From a virus, in the IMG/VR virus record IMGVR_UViG_3300021964_000558, positions 1-23,331 of that record: 23,331 nucleotides of DNA. One strand, given 5' to 3'. This document shows, piece by piece, positions 5,268 through 22,882 of the stretch. Made by a program: the position numbers and the translations under genes. The number at the start of each line of letters is the position of its first letter. Positions within the stretch are counted from its first letter, which is position 1. Below the pieces are notes generated by a model, which ran no database searches, was not told the origin of the DNA, and was given only the letters and a program-made list of their open reading frames with translations.

Positions 5268-6224
5268 ATGGCAACTCCAAACAGCTCGTTTAGTGACATC
5301 ATCACGACGACCTTCCAGGGCTACTCCGGGAAGATCGCCGACAACATCACCAACCATAACGCTTTGCTTCGGCAGATCGAGCGCAAGGGCAACATGATGC
5401 CGGCCACTGGCCGGACGATTGTCCAAGAGATCGACTTCGCCGAGAACGGAACGGTGATGTGGTATTCGGGGAGTGAGACCCTCGATACGTCGGTTTCCGA
5501 CACCTTCACGGCCGCCGAGTTCAACTACAAGCAGCTCGCCGGTAACGTCGTGATCACCGGCCTGGAAGAAGTCCAGAACTCGGGCCGTGAGGCGATTCAC
5601 AACCTGGTTCGCGCTCGCATGACCAACCTTGACCGTTCGCTGCGTAACACGGTCGCAACGGCGCTCTATGCCGACGGCACCGGCTCTGGCGGCAAGGAGT
5701 TCGGTGGTCTTCAGGAACTGGTCGCAGACACCAACACCAACACCGTTGGCGGCATCTCCGGCACGACGTATTCGTGGTGGCGTAACTACGTCTACGACTT
5801 TTCCACGCTCTCGATCACGGCCTCGGCCACCACGATCCAGACGGCCATGAATACCTCATGGCTTAACGTGATCCGTGGTTCCGACATGCCTGACATCATC
5901 GTGGCTGGGACGACGTATTTCACGTACTACTGGGACAGCCTTCTGGCCAACCAGCGGTTTACGTCGGACGCCGAAGCGGGCGCCGGGTTCACCAACCTTG
6001 TCTACAAAGGCAACGTGCCGGTGATCTTTGACGACCAGTGTGCTGCCACTCGGATGTATCTTTTGAACACCGATTATCTGTTTGTCCGTCCGGCTAAGGG
6101 TCGCTGGCTGAAGCCACTGCCCGACAAGTCCTCGGTCAACCAGGACGCGATCGTCATGCCGATTGTCCTCGCGGGCAACATGACGGTCTCTAACCGCAGC
6201 CTCCAGGCTGTGATCTGTGCCTAA
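5268..6224 (+). CDS. Major capsid protein (HK97-fold type)
   Basis: 318 residues, ATG at 5268 behind CAGGAG at 5254-5259. It begins ATPNSSFSDIITTTFQGYSG and continues with RTIVQEIDFAENGTVMWYSG and NYKQLAGNVVITGLEEVQNS. Around residues 115-125 is NLVRARMTNLDRSLRNTVAT, the long spine-helix pattern I know from phage major capsid proteins. The C-terminus (IVMPIVLAGNMTVSNRSLQA) matches the usual closing strand. It follows the scaffold and precedes a decoration-like gene, the standard head order. Codon use is strongly biased to GC-ending codons with a good ribosome site, as expected for a highly expressed gene. The exact capsid subfamily is not resolved; P22 coat-type insertions are not obvious at this length. 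Confidence 0.85.
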   Translation: MATPNSSFSDIITTTFQGYSGKIADNITNHNALLRQIERKGNMMPATGRTIVQEIDFAENGTVMWYSGSETLDTSVSDTFTAAEFNYKQLAGNVVITGLEEVQNSGREAIHNLVRARMTNLDRSLRNTVATALYADGTGSGGKEFGGLQELVADTNTNTVGGISGTTYSWWRNYVYDFSTLSITASATTIQTAMNTSWLNVIRGSDMPDIIVAGTTYFTYYWDSLLANQRFTSDAEAGAGFTNLVYKGNVPVIFDDQCAATRMYLLNTDYLFVRPAKGRWLKPLPDKSSVNQDAIVMPIVLAGNMTVSNRSLQAVICA

Positions 6225-9645: not shown

Positions 9646-10694
9646 GCAACACGCCGGATCAACGCACTGCGAACATGGTTCATTTCCCGAATAAGGATGA
9701 GACGGACCCCAATGCGCTCGATGAATATCTTGATAATCTTGTCACGGGGTCTGGATTCGTAGCGATTACCGGAACGCCCGTAGATAATCAGGTTGCTGTC
9801 TGGACGTCTGCGACAAACATTGAAGGGACTACGGGACTAACCTACGACGGTAGCTCGTTTGGCGTCACAGGTAACATCACTGTCAGCGGCACAGTGGATG
9901 GCGTTGATATTGCGGCTCGGGATCACGACGCGGTGACGTTGGCGGGGACTGGCACGTACATCAGCCTTTCGGGGCAGCAAATAACAGTCGATCCGATTAC
10001 AGAGAGCGACATCTCTGATTTAGGCAATTACGTTGATTACACCGGGACGCCAGCTGACAACCAGATTGCCGTGTGGACGGGTGACGGCACGATTGAAGGC
10101 ACAGCTAACTTTACATGGGACGACGCCAACACCCTGTCTCTCACAGCATCCGGCAACTTGACCATAGAAGGCAACACGACCGGCACGTTTCCAACTCTTG
10201 TTATTACACAGCCTCACGCAACGCTGGGCGACAACTACATCAAGCTTCAGCACGCAACGTCTGGAAACAACACTTTTGTCGTACAGCTGGACGGCACTGA
10301 GTTTCTGGCGCTCCAGCTTGATAATACCGGCAGAATTGGATGGAAACTCAGGGAGTCTTCAGCAGCTTTAAGCGACTCAGCTGCCTTCGGCCAGTGGTGG
10401 GTCAAGGACGACACGCCCAACATCCCAAAGTTTACGGATGATGCGGGCAATGATTACAGCATTGTTTTAGACACCAAAGCGCAGACTATTACCAACAAGA
10501 CAGCGGTTGAGTCGGCTATTTTTGAGGCCGACAACGGATACACGGTCGCAACACTTCCAACGCCGACCGTAGGCATGATCGCGCGAGTCACAGATGCAAA
10601 CAGTCCTAGCGTTGGGAGTACGGTTTCAGGCAGCGGCGCAGCTGCGGCCCTAGTCTGGTACAACGGAAGCAACTGGACGGTGATTGGGGTCTAA
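9642..10694 (+). CDS. Fibre-like virion protein with internal repeats
   Basis: 350 residues from ATG 9642, which overlaps the gp4-like stop (ATGA); longer in-frame openings upstream lie inside the previous gene and are rejected. Two copies of a TGTPxDNQxAVWTxxxxIEGT unit sit at residues 43-63 and 134-154, a motif frequent in phage fibre shafts. The middle is Thr/Asn/Gly-rich beta. The C-terminal 50 residues (YTVATLPTPTVGMIARVTD, then ALVWYNGSNWTVIG) form a tip module shared with the 143-residue fibre protein encoded at 17893-18324. Placement between the gp4-like and gp10-like genes suggests a neck or head fibre. Base composition is less GC-rich than the neighbours. Confidence 0.6.
   Translation: MSNTPDQRTANMVHFPNKDETDPNALDEYLDNLVTGSGFVAITGTPVDNQVAVWTSATNIEGTTGLTYDGSSFGVTGNITVSGTVDGVDIAARDHDAVTLAGTGTYISLSGQQITVDPITESDISDLGNYVDYTGTPADNQIAVWTGDGTIEGTANFTWDDANTLSLTASGNLTIEGNTTGTFPTLVITQPHATLGDNYIKLQHATSGNNTFVVQLDGTEFLALQLDNTGRIGWKLRESSAALSDSAAFGQWWVKDDTPNIPKFTDDAGNDYSIVLDTKAQTITNKTAVESAIFEADNGYTVATLPTPTVGMIARVTDANSPSVGSTVSGSGAAAALVWYNGSNWTVIGV
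9768..9830 (+). repeat. Fibre repeat unit, copy 1
   Basis: Encodes TGTPVDNQVAVWTSATNIEG plus T. Compared with copy 2 the protein is conserved but the codons have diverged, so this is an old tandem-module duplication. Confidence 0.6.
10041..10103 (+). repeat. Fibre repeat unit, copy 2
   Basis: Encodes TGTPADNQIAVWTGDGTIEG plus T, 91 residues after copy 1; the same shaft motif with conservative substitutions. Confidence 0.6.
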
Positions 10695-19242: not shown

Positions 19243-20915
19243 TGCCAACAGGTGTCGCAATACGGACGCTCGAAGCGTCGGCAGAACCGTGCTCTGGCGC
19301 GCGTCAGGGCGTGTTTGGCGAAACGGAGAGCTTGTCGCTGGATTTCACCGACGACTTCTTCAAGAACAGCCAGGACTTCAACGGCAGCGCCTATGTGCTC
19401 GACGCCTCGACGCCAGCCAATGACTTCGACGGCGTGCCTGATGATCTGCTGACGTATACCAGCCCGTCCATCAAGAACGTGTTAGATGCGAGCGGGAACC
19501 TGACGTATGCGGCTCATAATCTCTATCTCAACAGCGCATCACCGGCAGATCAGGGTATTACGGTCGTATCTGGCCAGACGTACAAGCTACTCGTCACAGG
19601 CACGGTCTCCATAACGGCCTCGGGCGCTGCAACGGGAACGGCCACGGCAGGTTCTCCCTTGTCATTCACGGCAGCCACGACCACGCTCACGCTTGGCTCC
19701 ACGTCGGGCAGCGGAACGGCTCAAGTCTTCGCTACGCCCGCCGATGAAAGCTATGTGGCAACGGCAGGCTCTGCCGCCTACGCCCTCCCCTACGATCACG
19801 ATACCAGTGGGACACTAAGGGGACTGCTGGTCGAACCGGCGGCGACGAATTTGATTACAGAGAGTCAGGACTTTACGGCGTGGACAAACACAAATTCCTC
19901 TGACGCTCAGGATGCGACTGGTCCTGATGGAGTCGCAAATTCAGCCTCCACGTTGACAGGTGATGGTGTTGGTTCAAAGCACCACTATTTTTTAGCCACA
20001 ACCTTTGCAATCAACACAGACTATACATATTCCGTATATTTAAAAGCTGGAACGAATAATTACGCTTGGATTTCATTCCAAGGAGGTTCGGAGCATTTTG
20101 TTTCTGCCGTTTTTGATTTAACAGGTGGATCATCGGCAAGTGAAACAGACGTTGGATCAACCTCGGGAACAATAAATTCAACACTTCAAGAAGATGTTGG
20201 TGGTGGTTGGTATAGATGCACACTAAGCGGGCAAGTCGGATTAGCGTCATCAACGGTTGTTGTTATTGGAATCGCTGAGGCGGCAACCGGAAACACATTT
20301 GATAGCACTGGCCATGTGACGTACACAACATCAAACACGATATTAGTCCACGGCGCCCAGTTTGAAACCGGCTTCGTCCCCACCTCTCTCATAAAGACGT
20401 ATGGGGCGACTGCGACGAGGGCGGTGGATAACATCACTTTAGTTGAAACAAGCTTTCCTGACAACGCCTCTGGTTTTTCTGTTTATGCAGAAGGTTCACA
20501 CCGTCAGGACGGAGACGTAATGCCAGTAGATTCGACTATTCTCGGGCAGGGTGACGCTGCGACACCGCATCTAAGTGTTAGACGTAACAGTTCAACCGCA
20601 TGGCGCGGTGAGCTGAATGATACCGGAGCTGACGCAATACCCACGATCACAGCAACCTACACTGCGGGAAGTGTAGTGCGGCTTGCTGGGGCTTATCAAG
20701 ATTCAAATACGGCATTCACTGCTGATGGCGCAACGGTAGCAACGGACGATACTTTTGATCAAAATCAGGCAACGTATAATGATTTAAGGTTCGGCCACAG
20801 ATACACCACCAGATCAGACCCGTGGAATGGCCATATTCGCCGAATTATTTACCTCCCGCGCGTTGTCTCAGACGCCGACCTTGCAACATGGTCCACAGCA
20901 GGTGACTTACCATGA
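19242..20915 (+). CDS. Tail spike / receptor-binding protein with lectin-like domains
   Basis: 557 residues from ATG 19242 (TAATG overlap). The first 40 residues anchor. Residues 90-165 form a beta domain (VVSGQTYKLLVTGTVSITAS). RGLLVEPAATNLITESQDF (193-211) opens a galactose-binding-like jelly-roll reaching ILVHGAQFETGFVPTSLIKT (367-386), a layout I know from phage spikes. Residues 408-557 (GFSVYAEGSHRQ; VVRLAGAYQDSNTAFTADGA; HIRRIIYLPRVVSDADLATW) resemble a concanavalin A/LamG-like lectin fold. It most likely binds host surface glycan. No depolymerase catalytic motif was recognised. The jelly-roll part (about 19950-20350) is strikingly AT-rich, suggesting horizontal exchange of the binding module. 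Confidence 0.65.
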   Translation: MPTGVAIRTLEASAEPCSGARQGVFGETESLSLDFTDDFFKNSQDFNGSAYVLDASTPANDFDGVPDDLLTYTSPSIKNVLDASGNLTYAAHNLYLNSASPADQGITVVSGQTYKLLVTGTVSITASGAATGTATAGSPLSFTAATTTLTLGSTSGSGTAQVFATPADESYVATAGSAAYALPYDHDTSGTLRGLLVEPAATNLITESQDFTAWTNTNSSDAQDATGPDGVANSASTLTGDGVGSKHHYFLATTFAINTDYTYSVYLKAGTNNYAWISFQGGSEHFVSAVFDLTGGSSASETDVGSTSGTINSTLQEDVGGGWYRCTLSGQVGLASSTVVVIGIAEAATGNTFDSTGHVTYTTSNTILVHGAQFETGFVPTSLIKTYGATATRAVDNITLVETSFPDNASGFSVYAEGSHRQDGDVMPVDSTILGQGDAATPHLSVRRNSSTAWRGELNDTGADAIPTITATYTAGSVVRLAGAYQDSNTAFTADGATVATDDTFDQNQATYNDLRFGHRYTTRSDPWNGHIRRIIYLPRVVSDADLATWSTAGDLP

Positions 20916-21406
20916 TGGACATCATTCTTTACGCACCGGGTGGTAAGGCCGATCTGGTGAACTTCGCCAAGGCGCACCCGCCCGCCAACCCGCTTCTTGA
21001 CGCAGAAGGCAACACCCGCGAAGGCGTTTCCTATTGTTGGTGGGCAGGCTCCGGCCAGTTCAAGACCGCCAACGGCACCTACGATGGCGAAGGCAACGAG
21101 ATCACGCCGCCCACTTTCGCGCCGGGTGTCGTAGCCCTGCTGCGCATCTCCGGCGAGTTCTTCCAGAGCACCAAACTCGCCGACCAGACCTACGACGAGA
21201 ACGGCGTGCCGCAGCTCGAACAAGAACAGCGCAGCGCCATCGTCAAATACGTTAAGGACAACGGCACGCCCGGCACGATGACGGCGGACAACATTCCGTA
21301 CTATGAAATTGACAGCGTCCGCCTGCTGCGTCCCCAAGACGTTGAGTCCTTTATGCAATCGCGCAACATCCCCGGCCACATCTGGGTTGGCGGCAATAGC
21401 TATTAG
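20912..21406 (+). CDS. Hypothetical tail-associated protein
   Basis: 164 residues; ATG 20912 overlaps the spike stop (ATGA); a second ATG follows at 20915. Recognisable stretches: GVSYCWWAGSGQFKTANGTY, GVVALLRISGEFFQSTKLAD and the C-terminal SFMQSRNIPGHIWVGGNSY. It looks like a compact alpha/beta cytosolic or virion protein without signal or membrane helices. I do not recognise the family. It ends the tail-fibre run; the 58-base gap after it marks a module border. GC content returns to high after the AT-rich spike. Confidence 0.5.
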   Translation: MMDIILYAPGGKADLVNFAKAHPPANPLLDAEGNTREGVSYCWWAGSGQFKTANGTYDGEGNEITPPTFAPGVVALLRISGEFFQSTKLADQTYDENGVPQLEQEQRSAIVKYVKDNGTPGTMTADNIPYYEIDSVRLLRPQDVESFMQSRNIPGHIWVGGNSY

Positions 21407-21432: not shown

Positions 21433-21466
21433 GTGATGCGTATCACACCCGCAGGACACGCATCAT
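21433..21466 (+). promoter_or_regulatory. Inverted repeat enclosing the ribosome-binding site
   Basis: TGATGCGT (21434-21441) and ACGCATCA (21458-21465) are perfect 8-bp inverted arms around a 16-base loop holding the Shine-Dalgarno-like AGGA (21453-21456). The A of the start codon at 21465 is in the right arm. An RNA hairpin here would expose the SD in the loop but bind the start region. A competing small palindrome GTGAT-GCGT-ATCAC lies at 21433-21446 and could instead be a protein operator. It lies in the 58-base gap, the longest in the window. Confidence 0.4.
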
Positions 21467-22091
21467 GGCCAAATTCGATCCCGCCCGCCATCGCGTCGTT
21501 GCCGTCCCTTACCGGGACGACGACCCCGAGAAGGGCCAACACTTCCACGTAGACCTGGACGCCCTCGTCGATGCCGCCAGAGAGGCCGCAGCGGCCGCCG
21601 GCGATGTTTCACGTGAAACACTCGGCGATGACCAGGGGATATTCCTTACCAAGCGCATCAACGCGCTAGAGGCCCGTGTCGCGGAGCTGGAAGCCCGCCC
21701 GGTCGTGTCCGAAGACATGCTGCGCCAGTTCAACGACGCCTTCAATGCTCGCGTAGACGCTATCGTTGAGCAGAAAGTCAACAAGGCACTAGGTGATCTT
21801 CGTTCACGGCTCGTTACGGTCGAAAAGAAATCAACCAGCGTAACGACCACGGCCCAAGACCCAGACAGCGCCAAGCTGACCCGATTTGCCACCTTGCTGC
21901 ACTCATTCGGCGAAATGGTCCGCGACGTTGAGACCACAGTGGATCGGCGCCAGACAGACCTGGAACAGCGCTACGCCGAGCTTGCCGAGCACATCACCGA
22001 CAACAACCTGAAGGTGATGAAGATGTCCACTCGGCTCTATCGCGCCCTTGCAGCCCTGGAGCACGACGACGAGGGAAAGGATGCAGCCTAA
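21465..22091 (+). CDS. Coiled-coil protein carrying an internal parS site
   Basis: 208 residues. ATG 21465 sits at the edge of an inverted repeat with AGGA in its loop. Residues 64-82 (RINALEARVAELEARPV) and 95-125 are coiled-coil heptads; a long helix at 140-195 (FGEMVRDVETTVDRRQTDLE) follows. Overall acidic with an Ala-rich N-terminal helix (DAAREAAAAAGD). No signal or membrane segment. The function is unknown; it directly precedes the endolysin (TAATG overlap), so it may be a late virion or lysis-timing protein. Codons 47-52 (DVSRET) contain a perfect parS palindrome. Confidence 0.6.
   Translation: MAKFDPARHRVVAVPYRDDDPEKGQHFHVDLDALVDAAREAAAAAGDVSRETLGDDQGIFLTKRINALEARVAELEARPVVSEDMLRQFNDAFNARVDAIVEQKVNKALGDLRSRLVTVEKKSTSVTTTAQDPDSAKLTRFATLLHSFGEMVRDVETTVDRRQTDLEQRYAELAEHITDNNLKVMKMSTRLYRALAALEHDDEGKDAA
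21605..21620. promoter_or_regulatory. parS: Consensus parS site (ParB/Spo0J-binding palindrome)
   Basis: The sequence TGTTTCACGTGAAACA is a perfect 16-bp palindrome identical to the canonical chromosomal parS consensus bound by ParB of most bacteria. It is read as codons for VSRET within a coiled-coil gene, a frequent way for parS to be hidden in coding sequence. It is flanked by an 8-bp direct repeat CGGCGATG (21599-21606 and 21623-21630), 24 bases apart. No second copy was found by eye in this window, and no parA or parB is present here. Confidence 0.85.
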
Positions 22092-22882
22092 TGGACATCC
22101 TGCCGATTAGCCAAGCCGGGCTCGACCTCGTCAAGCACTTCGAAGGCTACCACGTCGAGCAAAAAGACGGCTCCTGTACGGCGTATCTCGATGTCGCCGG
22201 CGTGCCAACGATCGGCTACGGCAGCATTCACGGCGTCAAGCTGGGAATGCGCTGGACACGCCAACAGGCCGAGAACGCCCTCATGGCCGAGCTGCAAAGC
22301 TGCGCCACAGAGGTTCAGCGCCTGGTCACCGTTCCCCTCAATCAGCAACAACACGATGCCCTCGTGTCGTTCGTCTATAACCTCGGCGTCGGTGCGTTCA
22401 CGCGCTCTACCCTCCTTCGAAAACTGAACAAGGGCGACTACGCCAGCGCCGAGGTTGAATTCTCCCGATGGGTCTATGCCTCGAAAGGCGCAGGCGGGCC
22501 TAAGGTCAAATACAATGGATTGGTGAGGCGCCGGAAAGCCGAGGCAGCCATGTTCGCCGACAATGATATCATTCCGGTTCCCGTCGAGGTGCCGACCGAG
22601 ATGGCCATGCCGCAGGCGCCGGAAACCAAACCCGTCAAGGTGCCGTGGTATAGCGCACCGCTTGCCATCGCAACATCTGCGGGTGCCTGGTTTGCCGATA
22701 AGCTCGAAGGGCTGGGCAACCTTCTGATGAGCGCGGGAGAGCAGTTCATGGGCTTCTCGGCCGTCGGCAGTATGGCACAATCCACCGGCATCACCCTCGC
22801 CCCAATCATGGCTGGGCTCGCCTGCCTGTCGGTCTTTATCGCCGCGAAAACCATGCTGTCCGAACCGGAGACGGTCGAATGA
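22091..22882 (+). CDS. Endolysin, GH24 (T4-type) lysozyme with C-terminal membrane helix
   Basis: 263 residues. Residues 1-155 are a phage-type lysozyme cleaving the MurNAc-GlcNAc bond of peptidoglycan: Glu18 (VKHFEGYHVE), Asp34 (AYLDVAGVPTIGYGS) and Thr40 form the usual E-D-T set. NQQQHDALVSFVYNLGVGAF and SRWVYASKGAGGPKVKYNGL, ending in GLVRRRKAEAAMF, complete the family. A Pro/Val linker (162-185) leads to a tail with a hydrophobic helix near 234-252 (GITLAPIMAGLACLSVFIAA). No N-terminal signal or SAR sequence is present, so the C-terminal helix is unusual and may tether the enzyme. TAATG overlap upstream, ATGA overlap downstream. No separate holin is visible in the window. Confidence 0.85.
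   Translation: MDILPISQAGLDLVKHFEGYHVEQKDGSCTAYLDVAGVPTIGYGSIHGVKLGMRWTRQQAENALMAELQSCATEVQRLVTVPLNQQQHDALVSFVYNLGVGAFTRSTLLRKLNKGDYASAEVEFSRWVYASKGAGGPKVKYNGLVRRRKAEAAMFADNDIIPVPVEVPTEMAMPQAPETKPVKVPWYSAPLAIATSAGAWFADKLEGLGNLLMSAGEQFMGFSAVGSMAQSTGITLAPIMAGLACLSVFIAAKTMLSEPETVE

Follow-up and report, generated by a model that had tools for sequence, protein, structure and literature searches.

Use of another replicon's partition machinery by mobile DNA has been reported before. For example, the island SGI1 carries stolen parS copies that stabilise SGI1 and disturb the IncC plasmid (PMC10954446), and phi29 DNA is entrapped in spores by the host protein Spo0J, as mentioned in PMC9437464 with a citation of Meijer 2005. 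The phi29 genome (L163) has four identical one-mismatch copies of parS, TGTTTCACGTGGAACA, at positions 10445, 15903, 17243 and 18760, where about 0.001 would be expected. One of the four is in gene 15 (endolysin/peptidoglycan hydrolase), and this gene also contains the parS of phages B103 and Goe1.

The locus described here resembles phi29 in having a parS-type site on a phage in which we found no ParB. The window, by which we mean the whole stretch of DNA that was analysed, measures 23.3 kb and is a fragment from a virus record; its features are listed in Table 1. The original prediction was that the window holds a perfect parS that could hardly occur by chance, and both points stood up: TGTTTCACGTGAAACA is an exact and single-copy match, the window has no second match even at up to three mismatches, and the shuffled window gives 0.06 expected matches at the same tolerance. 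The 16-mer fits the chromosomal parS consensus TGTTNCACGTGAAACA (consensus per PMC7022226). The hexamer CACGTG is present once in the 23.3 kb, within parS, versus seven to nine copies expected.

Table 1. Positions of the parS site, the gene that carries it and other features of the window.
Feature	Position	Strand	Basis
Major capsid protein	5268..6224	+	PHROG 9953 major head protein, E 2.9e-86
164-codon late gene, upstream neighbour of the parS gene	20912..21406	+	ORF; no PHROG match
parS-carrying 208-codon gene	21465..22091	+	ORF and homologues; N-terminal module, then predicted coiled coil
parS, TGTTTCACGTGAAACA	21605..21620	.	Perfect 16-bp palindrome; exact match to the universal chromosomal parS sequence
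Endolysin gene, immediately following the parS gene	22091..22882	+	PHROG 7 endolysin, E 1.4e-54

The site was also said to be in a coiled-coil gene before the endolysin, and the reading frames agree, with 470 bp between parS and the endolysin gene. The parS frame reads GAT-GTT-TCA-CGT-GAA-ACA, or DVSRET, at codons 47-52, and the first base of the palindrome is the last base of GAT. The product of the gene has weak PHROG matches only, and no homologues of it were found in INPHARED or in the GTDB genomes. Its AlphaFold model is of low confidence (pTM 0.25, too weak for a fold search); it shows long helices beyond residue 54, and the stretch that includes the parS codons has a pLDDT of less than 50. 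The 8-bp direct repeats CGGCGATG at 21599-21606 and 21623-21630, which had been offered as a hint of how the site arose, were rejected as an insertion footprint. They are not conserved in the relatives, where the second copy reads CGGCGACG or GGGCGACG or is missing and where the upstream copy is missing from L178 and L181, and so they are uninformative on origin.

Homologues were collected both via the 208-residue protein and via the endolysin. The protein of one record (L122) is identical to that of the window and the two were counted together, giving seven distinct sequences, the window plus six homologues. Every homologue has the exact 16-mer, one per record. The seven sequences are 64-88% identical as DNA and include three different N-terminal modules, and the 16-mer is identical in 7/7; the longest invariant DNA run across them is exactly the 16-mer, followed by one of 7 bp. 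Among the amino-acid-invariant codons, all five inside parS are also codon-invariant, versus five of 56 outside. A degeneracy-matched estimate for this freezing is about 5e-6, which is indicative only because codons are taken as independent and phylogeny is ignored. The first set of five sequences has a pairwise DNA identity of 68-88%, with 27-49% of same-residue codons differing and the six parS codons identical. L178 and L181 have other N-terminal modules and parS is still present; the residue before VSRET, Asp (GAT) elsewhere, is Asn (AAT) or Pro (CCT) in these two, and the leading T of the palindrome is constant.

The VSRET peptide is likewise conserved across the seven sequences, and a protein-level explanation of it was rejected by the codon test. 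Because synonymous sites are frozen in parS and the T is kept across Asp, Asn and Pro codons, it is the DNA of parS, and not the VSRET peptide, that is under selection. The opposite pattern, in which homologues keep VSRET and lose the palindrome bases, was looked for and not seen; the palindrome is conserved beyond what the peptide requires.

Judged by its major capsid protein, which is 40-44% identical to those of Mx8, Mx9, ppBjS10J-1 and BUCT555, the window phage is an Mx8-like podovirus. Two relatives, G003 and G004, become colinear once rotated. They end in direct repeats, 123 bp long in one and about 126 bp in the other, and on this basis both are treated as complete, at about 39.7-39.8 kb. 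Each of the two has one parS. G003 has genes for a RecT-type annealing protein, a primase-helicase, a DNA methylase and a terminase, and G004 has genes for an Erf-type annealing protein and a DnaD-like helicase loader.

No match to ParB_N (PF02195) or to the ParA-type AAA_31 domain (PF13614) was found in the window, itself a fragment, or in the closed G003 and G004, in a search that a very divergent ParB could escape. The original prediction likewise had no parA or parB in view, and the ParA plus ParB gene pair of a phage-plasmid with its own ParABS system was found in none of the three. With partition genes missing from the search results, nothing speaks positively for the suggestion that the phage is a plasmid-prophage. 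A tyrosine integrase (Phage_integrase, PF00589), as in an integrating temperate phage, had no match in G000, G003 or G004, serine recombinases being outside this search.

The distribution of parS among the other relatives displays some further patterns. A sister clade (L153-L157) is without the 16-mer, and in four of its records a different gene has CGTTGCACGTGAAACA close to its 3' end. This sequence agrees with TGTTNCACGTGAAACA except for the first base, and the four records are otherwise too alike for a conservation test. The related Stenotrophomonas phage BUCT555 (L169) has three TGTTCCACGTGGAAC-type sites, at 472, 2370 and 37884, that match the Pseudomonas-type parS consensus. No parS site was found in the prophage or integrase-bearing relatives Mx8, Mx9, ppBjS10J-1, 45A6 and RHph_I3_18, with Mx9 and 45A6 scanned from beyond their first 3.2-3.5 kb. 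That the integrating relatives are without parS, whereas the non-integrating ones have it, is suggestive in these few genomes. Neither the circular relative ctMlz233 nor G016, of 36.7 kb, has a good parS site, and parS is therefore not required for this capsid type.

GANTC is the CcrM site of alphaproteobacteria. It is depleted in the window, G003 and G004, where it occurs at 0.34-0.48 of expectation, much like in a Rhizobium phage (0.28) and in contrast to BUCT555 (0.69) and Mx8 (1.00). A porin-like gene of G004 (L136:7853-8995) has distant homologues mostly on plasmids of Ensifer, Rhodobacter and other alphaproteobacteria. In addition, the 16-mer is identical to Hyphomonas parS and agrees with the Caulobacter consensus (PMC7022226). 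These three observations make an alphaproteobacterial host likely for the parS phage group, and the ParB of such a host should recognise the 16-mer. A search of GTDB with the capsid protein found no prophage that could have indicated the host. A second short ORF of G004 (L136:5368-5721) starts with the same residues as the porin-like gene (MKWKLLAAASLLVPWNAYAADLGGNCCADLEERVAELEA).

The exact 16-mer is strongly over-represented in phages. It is present in 286 INPHARED records, many of them near-duplicates (e.g., 87 Listeria records) and with their places counted on both strands, versus none for a reversed control palindrome, and in at least 120 IMG/VR stretches versus one for a reversed palindrome of equal composition. 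ParB_N matches over the cut-off were found in three of 50 parS-bearing IMG/VR records, many of which are fragments and some of which may be bacterial. The VSRET reading encoded by parS turns up again in unrelated proteins. For example, L092 and L109, which are 74% identical, have the parS VSRET in place while 52% of their same-residue codons differ, and in the related large phage proteins L012, L052 and L072 it is at non-homologous positions. The latter observation suggests that parS has been gained repeatedly and independently.

Some other occurrences are listed here for their own sake. Microviridae in INPHARED (PQ006149, PQ006099 and others), with genomes of about 5-6 kb, have up to six exact parS copies, and in KP280063 (Vibrio phage phi 3) and Gordonia phages exact parS is in or near the genome ends or terminal repeats. 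We found no description of host-type parS sites across phages in the open-licence papers that we searched. Host-type parS in phages is apparently a variation on the phi29-Spo0J theme that is more widespread than documented.

Overall, the core of the original prediction is supported by the seven sequences, the two closed genomes and the large-scale controls: the parS is genuine, its DNA sequence is what is conserved, and the phage that carries it has no parA or parB that we could find. The plasmid-prophage version and the origin from direct repeats are not supported. As for what the site does, we give an even chance to the reading in which the 16-mer works as a host-type centromere and hijacked host ParB tethers or partitions the non-integrated phage genome. 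Binding of host ParB to the 16-mer is very probable. Tethering or partition would be the likeliest role because of the analogy with phi29-Spo0J and SGI1, and our confidence in it is a shade below even. Once the phage DNA has been injected, the ParB of the host, which is a CTP-dependent clamp, would load at the single parS and slide onto the adjoining phage DNA. The coating would mark the non-integrated genome as chromosome-like, and host ParA, SMC and the cell-pole machinery might then hold or partition it during delayed lysis, in parallel with phi29, whose DNA reportedly enters spores with the help of host Spo0J. What counts against hijacking is the single parS per genome here, versus four in phi29, and the lack of a good site in ctMlz233 and G016.

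In a wider form, which we put forward tentatively, borrowing of host ParB through a stolen universal parS may be widespread and repeatedly evolved (alphaproteobacterial, actinobacterial, firmicute and ssDNA phages), tuned to the parS type of the host, and may replace phage-encoded partition during a non-integrated, delayed-lysis state.

Rather than tethering the phage genome, the sites on replicating phage DNA could pull ParB, and with it SMC, off the host chromosome, so that segregation and division stall and the phage benefits. Caulobacter depends on ParB for viability and Hyphomonas yielded no parB mutants (PMC7022226), many phage copies would exceed the few chromosomal sites, and the effect of the SGI1 copies on the IncC plasmid is of this kind (PMC10954446). 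However, a single site per genome would make a poor sponge, and the copy number is one early in infection; we consider titration unlikely.

The position of parS just upstream of the endolysin, together with the gene 15 sites of B103, Goe1 and phi29, would fit a brake on lysis that senses copy number, in which ParB clamps spread over the late genes, including the endolysin, and silence them until ParB is diluted by the replicating genomes. Pseudomonas ParB does repress genes beside some parS sites (PMC5521831). This live alternative is slightly less likely than titration in our view, since the parS of other phages is found in early genes or close to the ends of the genome, the sister-clade variant is in a different gene, and in L181 parS and the endolysin are 2.7 kb apart.

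It is improbable that the sequence is some other DNA element, such as a site for a phage regulator, a module recombination junction, or a methylation or packaging site, and that its identity with parS is coincidental. The N-terminal module does switch near parS in L178 and L181, which places the site close to a recombination boundary, but conservation stops exactly at the borders of the 16-bp parS, the same 16-mer is in unrelated phage genes and sometimes at non-homologous positions of related proteins, and BUCT555 has the Pseudomonas-type variant instead. Finally, chance or constraint solely on the VSRET peptide is scarcely credible, for although the peptide is conserved too, synonymous freezing is seen only at parS, the third-position T is kept across three amino acids, and the probability of the parS codon set given VSRET is about 0.0008 with the codon usage of the window.

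If host ParB does load on these genomes, then the chromosome-segregation machinery is a phage resource, and non-integrating phages would have a testable mechanism for persistence or for lysis timing in dividing cells. The parS can be removed by clean synonymous mutations, and the parS subtype is a possible host-prediction marker for phage contigs.

The known systems differ from this one in several ways. Alphaproteobacterial phages whose lytic deferment is under CtrA control (PMC9437464) likewise use a host cell-cycle factor, but CtrA is a transcription factor and not a partition protein, and no CtrA sites (TTAA-N7-TTAA) were found here. The phage-plasmids P1 and N15, mycobacteriophages and cyanophage Mic1 (PMC7156551) likewise have a centromere on the phage genome; however, they encode ParA/ParB with a private parS, whereas the site here is the universal chromosomal one and no such genes were found. 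Phage phi29, which has parS-type sites like the window phage group and has no annotated ParB, belongs to a different family and has four near-perfect sites rather than one perfect intragenic site. Its host sporulates and a role of Spo0J is reported, whereas the host of the window phage is probably alphaproteobacterial and non-sporulating. SGI1 is likewise a mobile element with the parS of another replicon, whose ParB it borrows, but it is an integrative island for which the targeting of a plasmid (IncC) ParB was shown experimentally (PMC10954446), and the window phage would be targeting the ParB of the chromosome.
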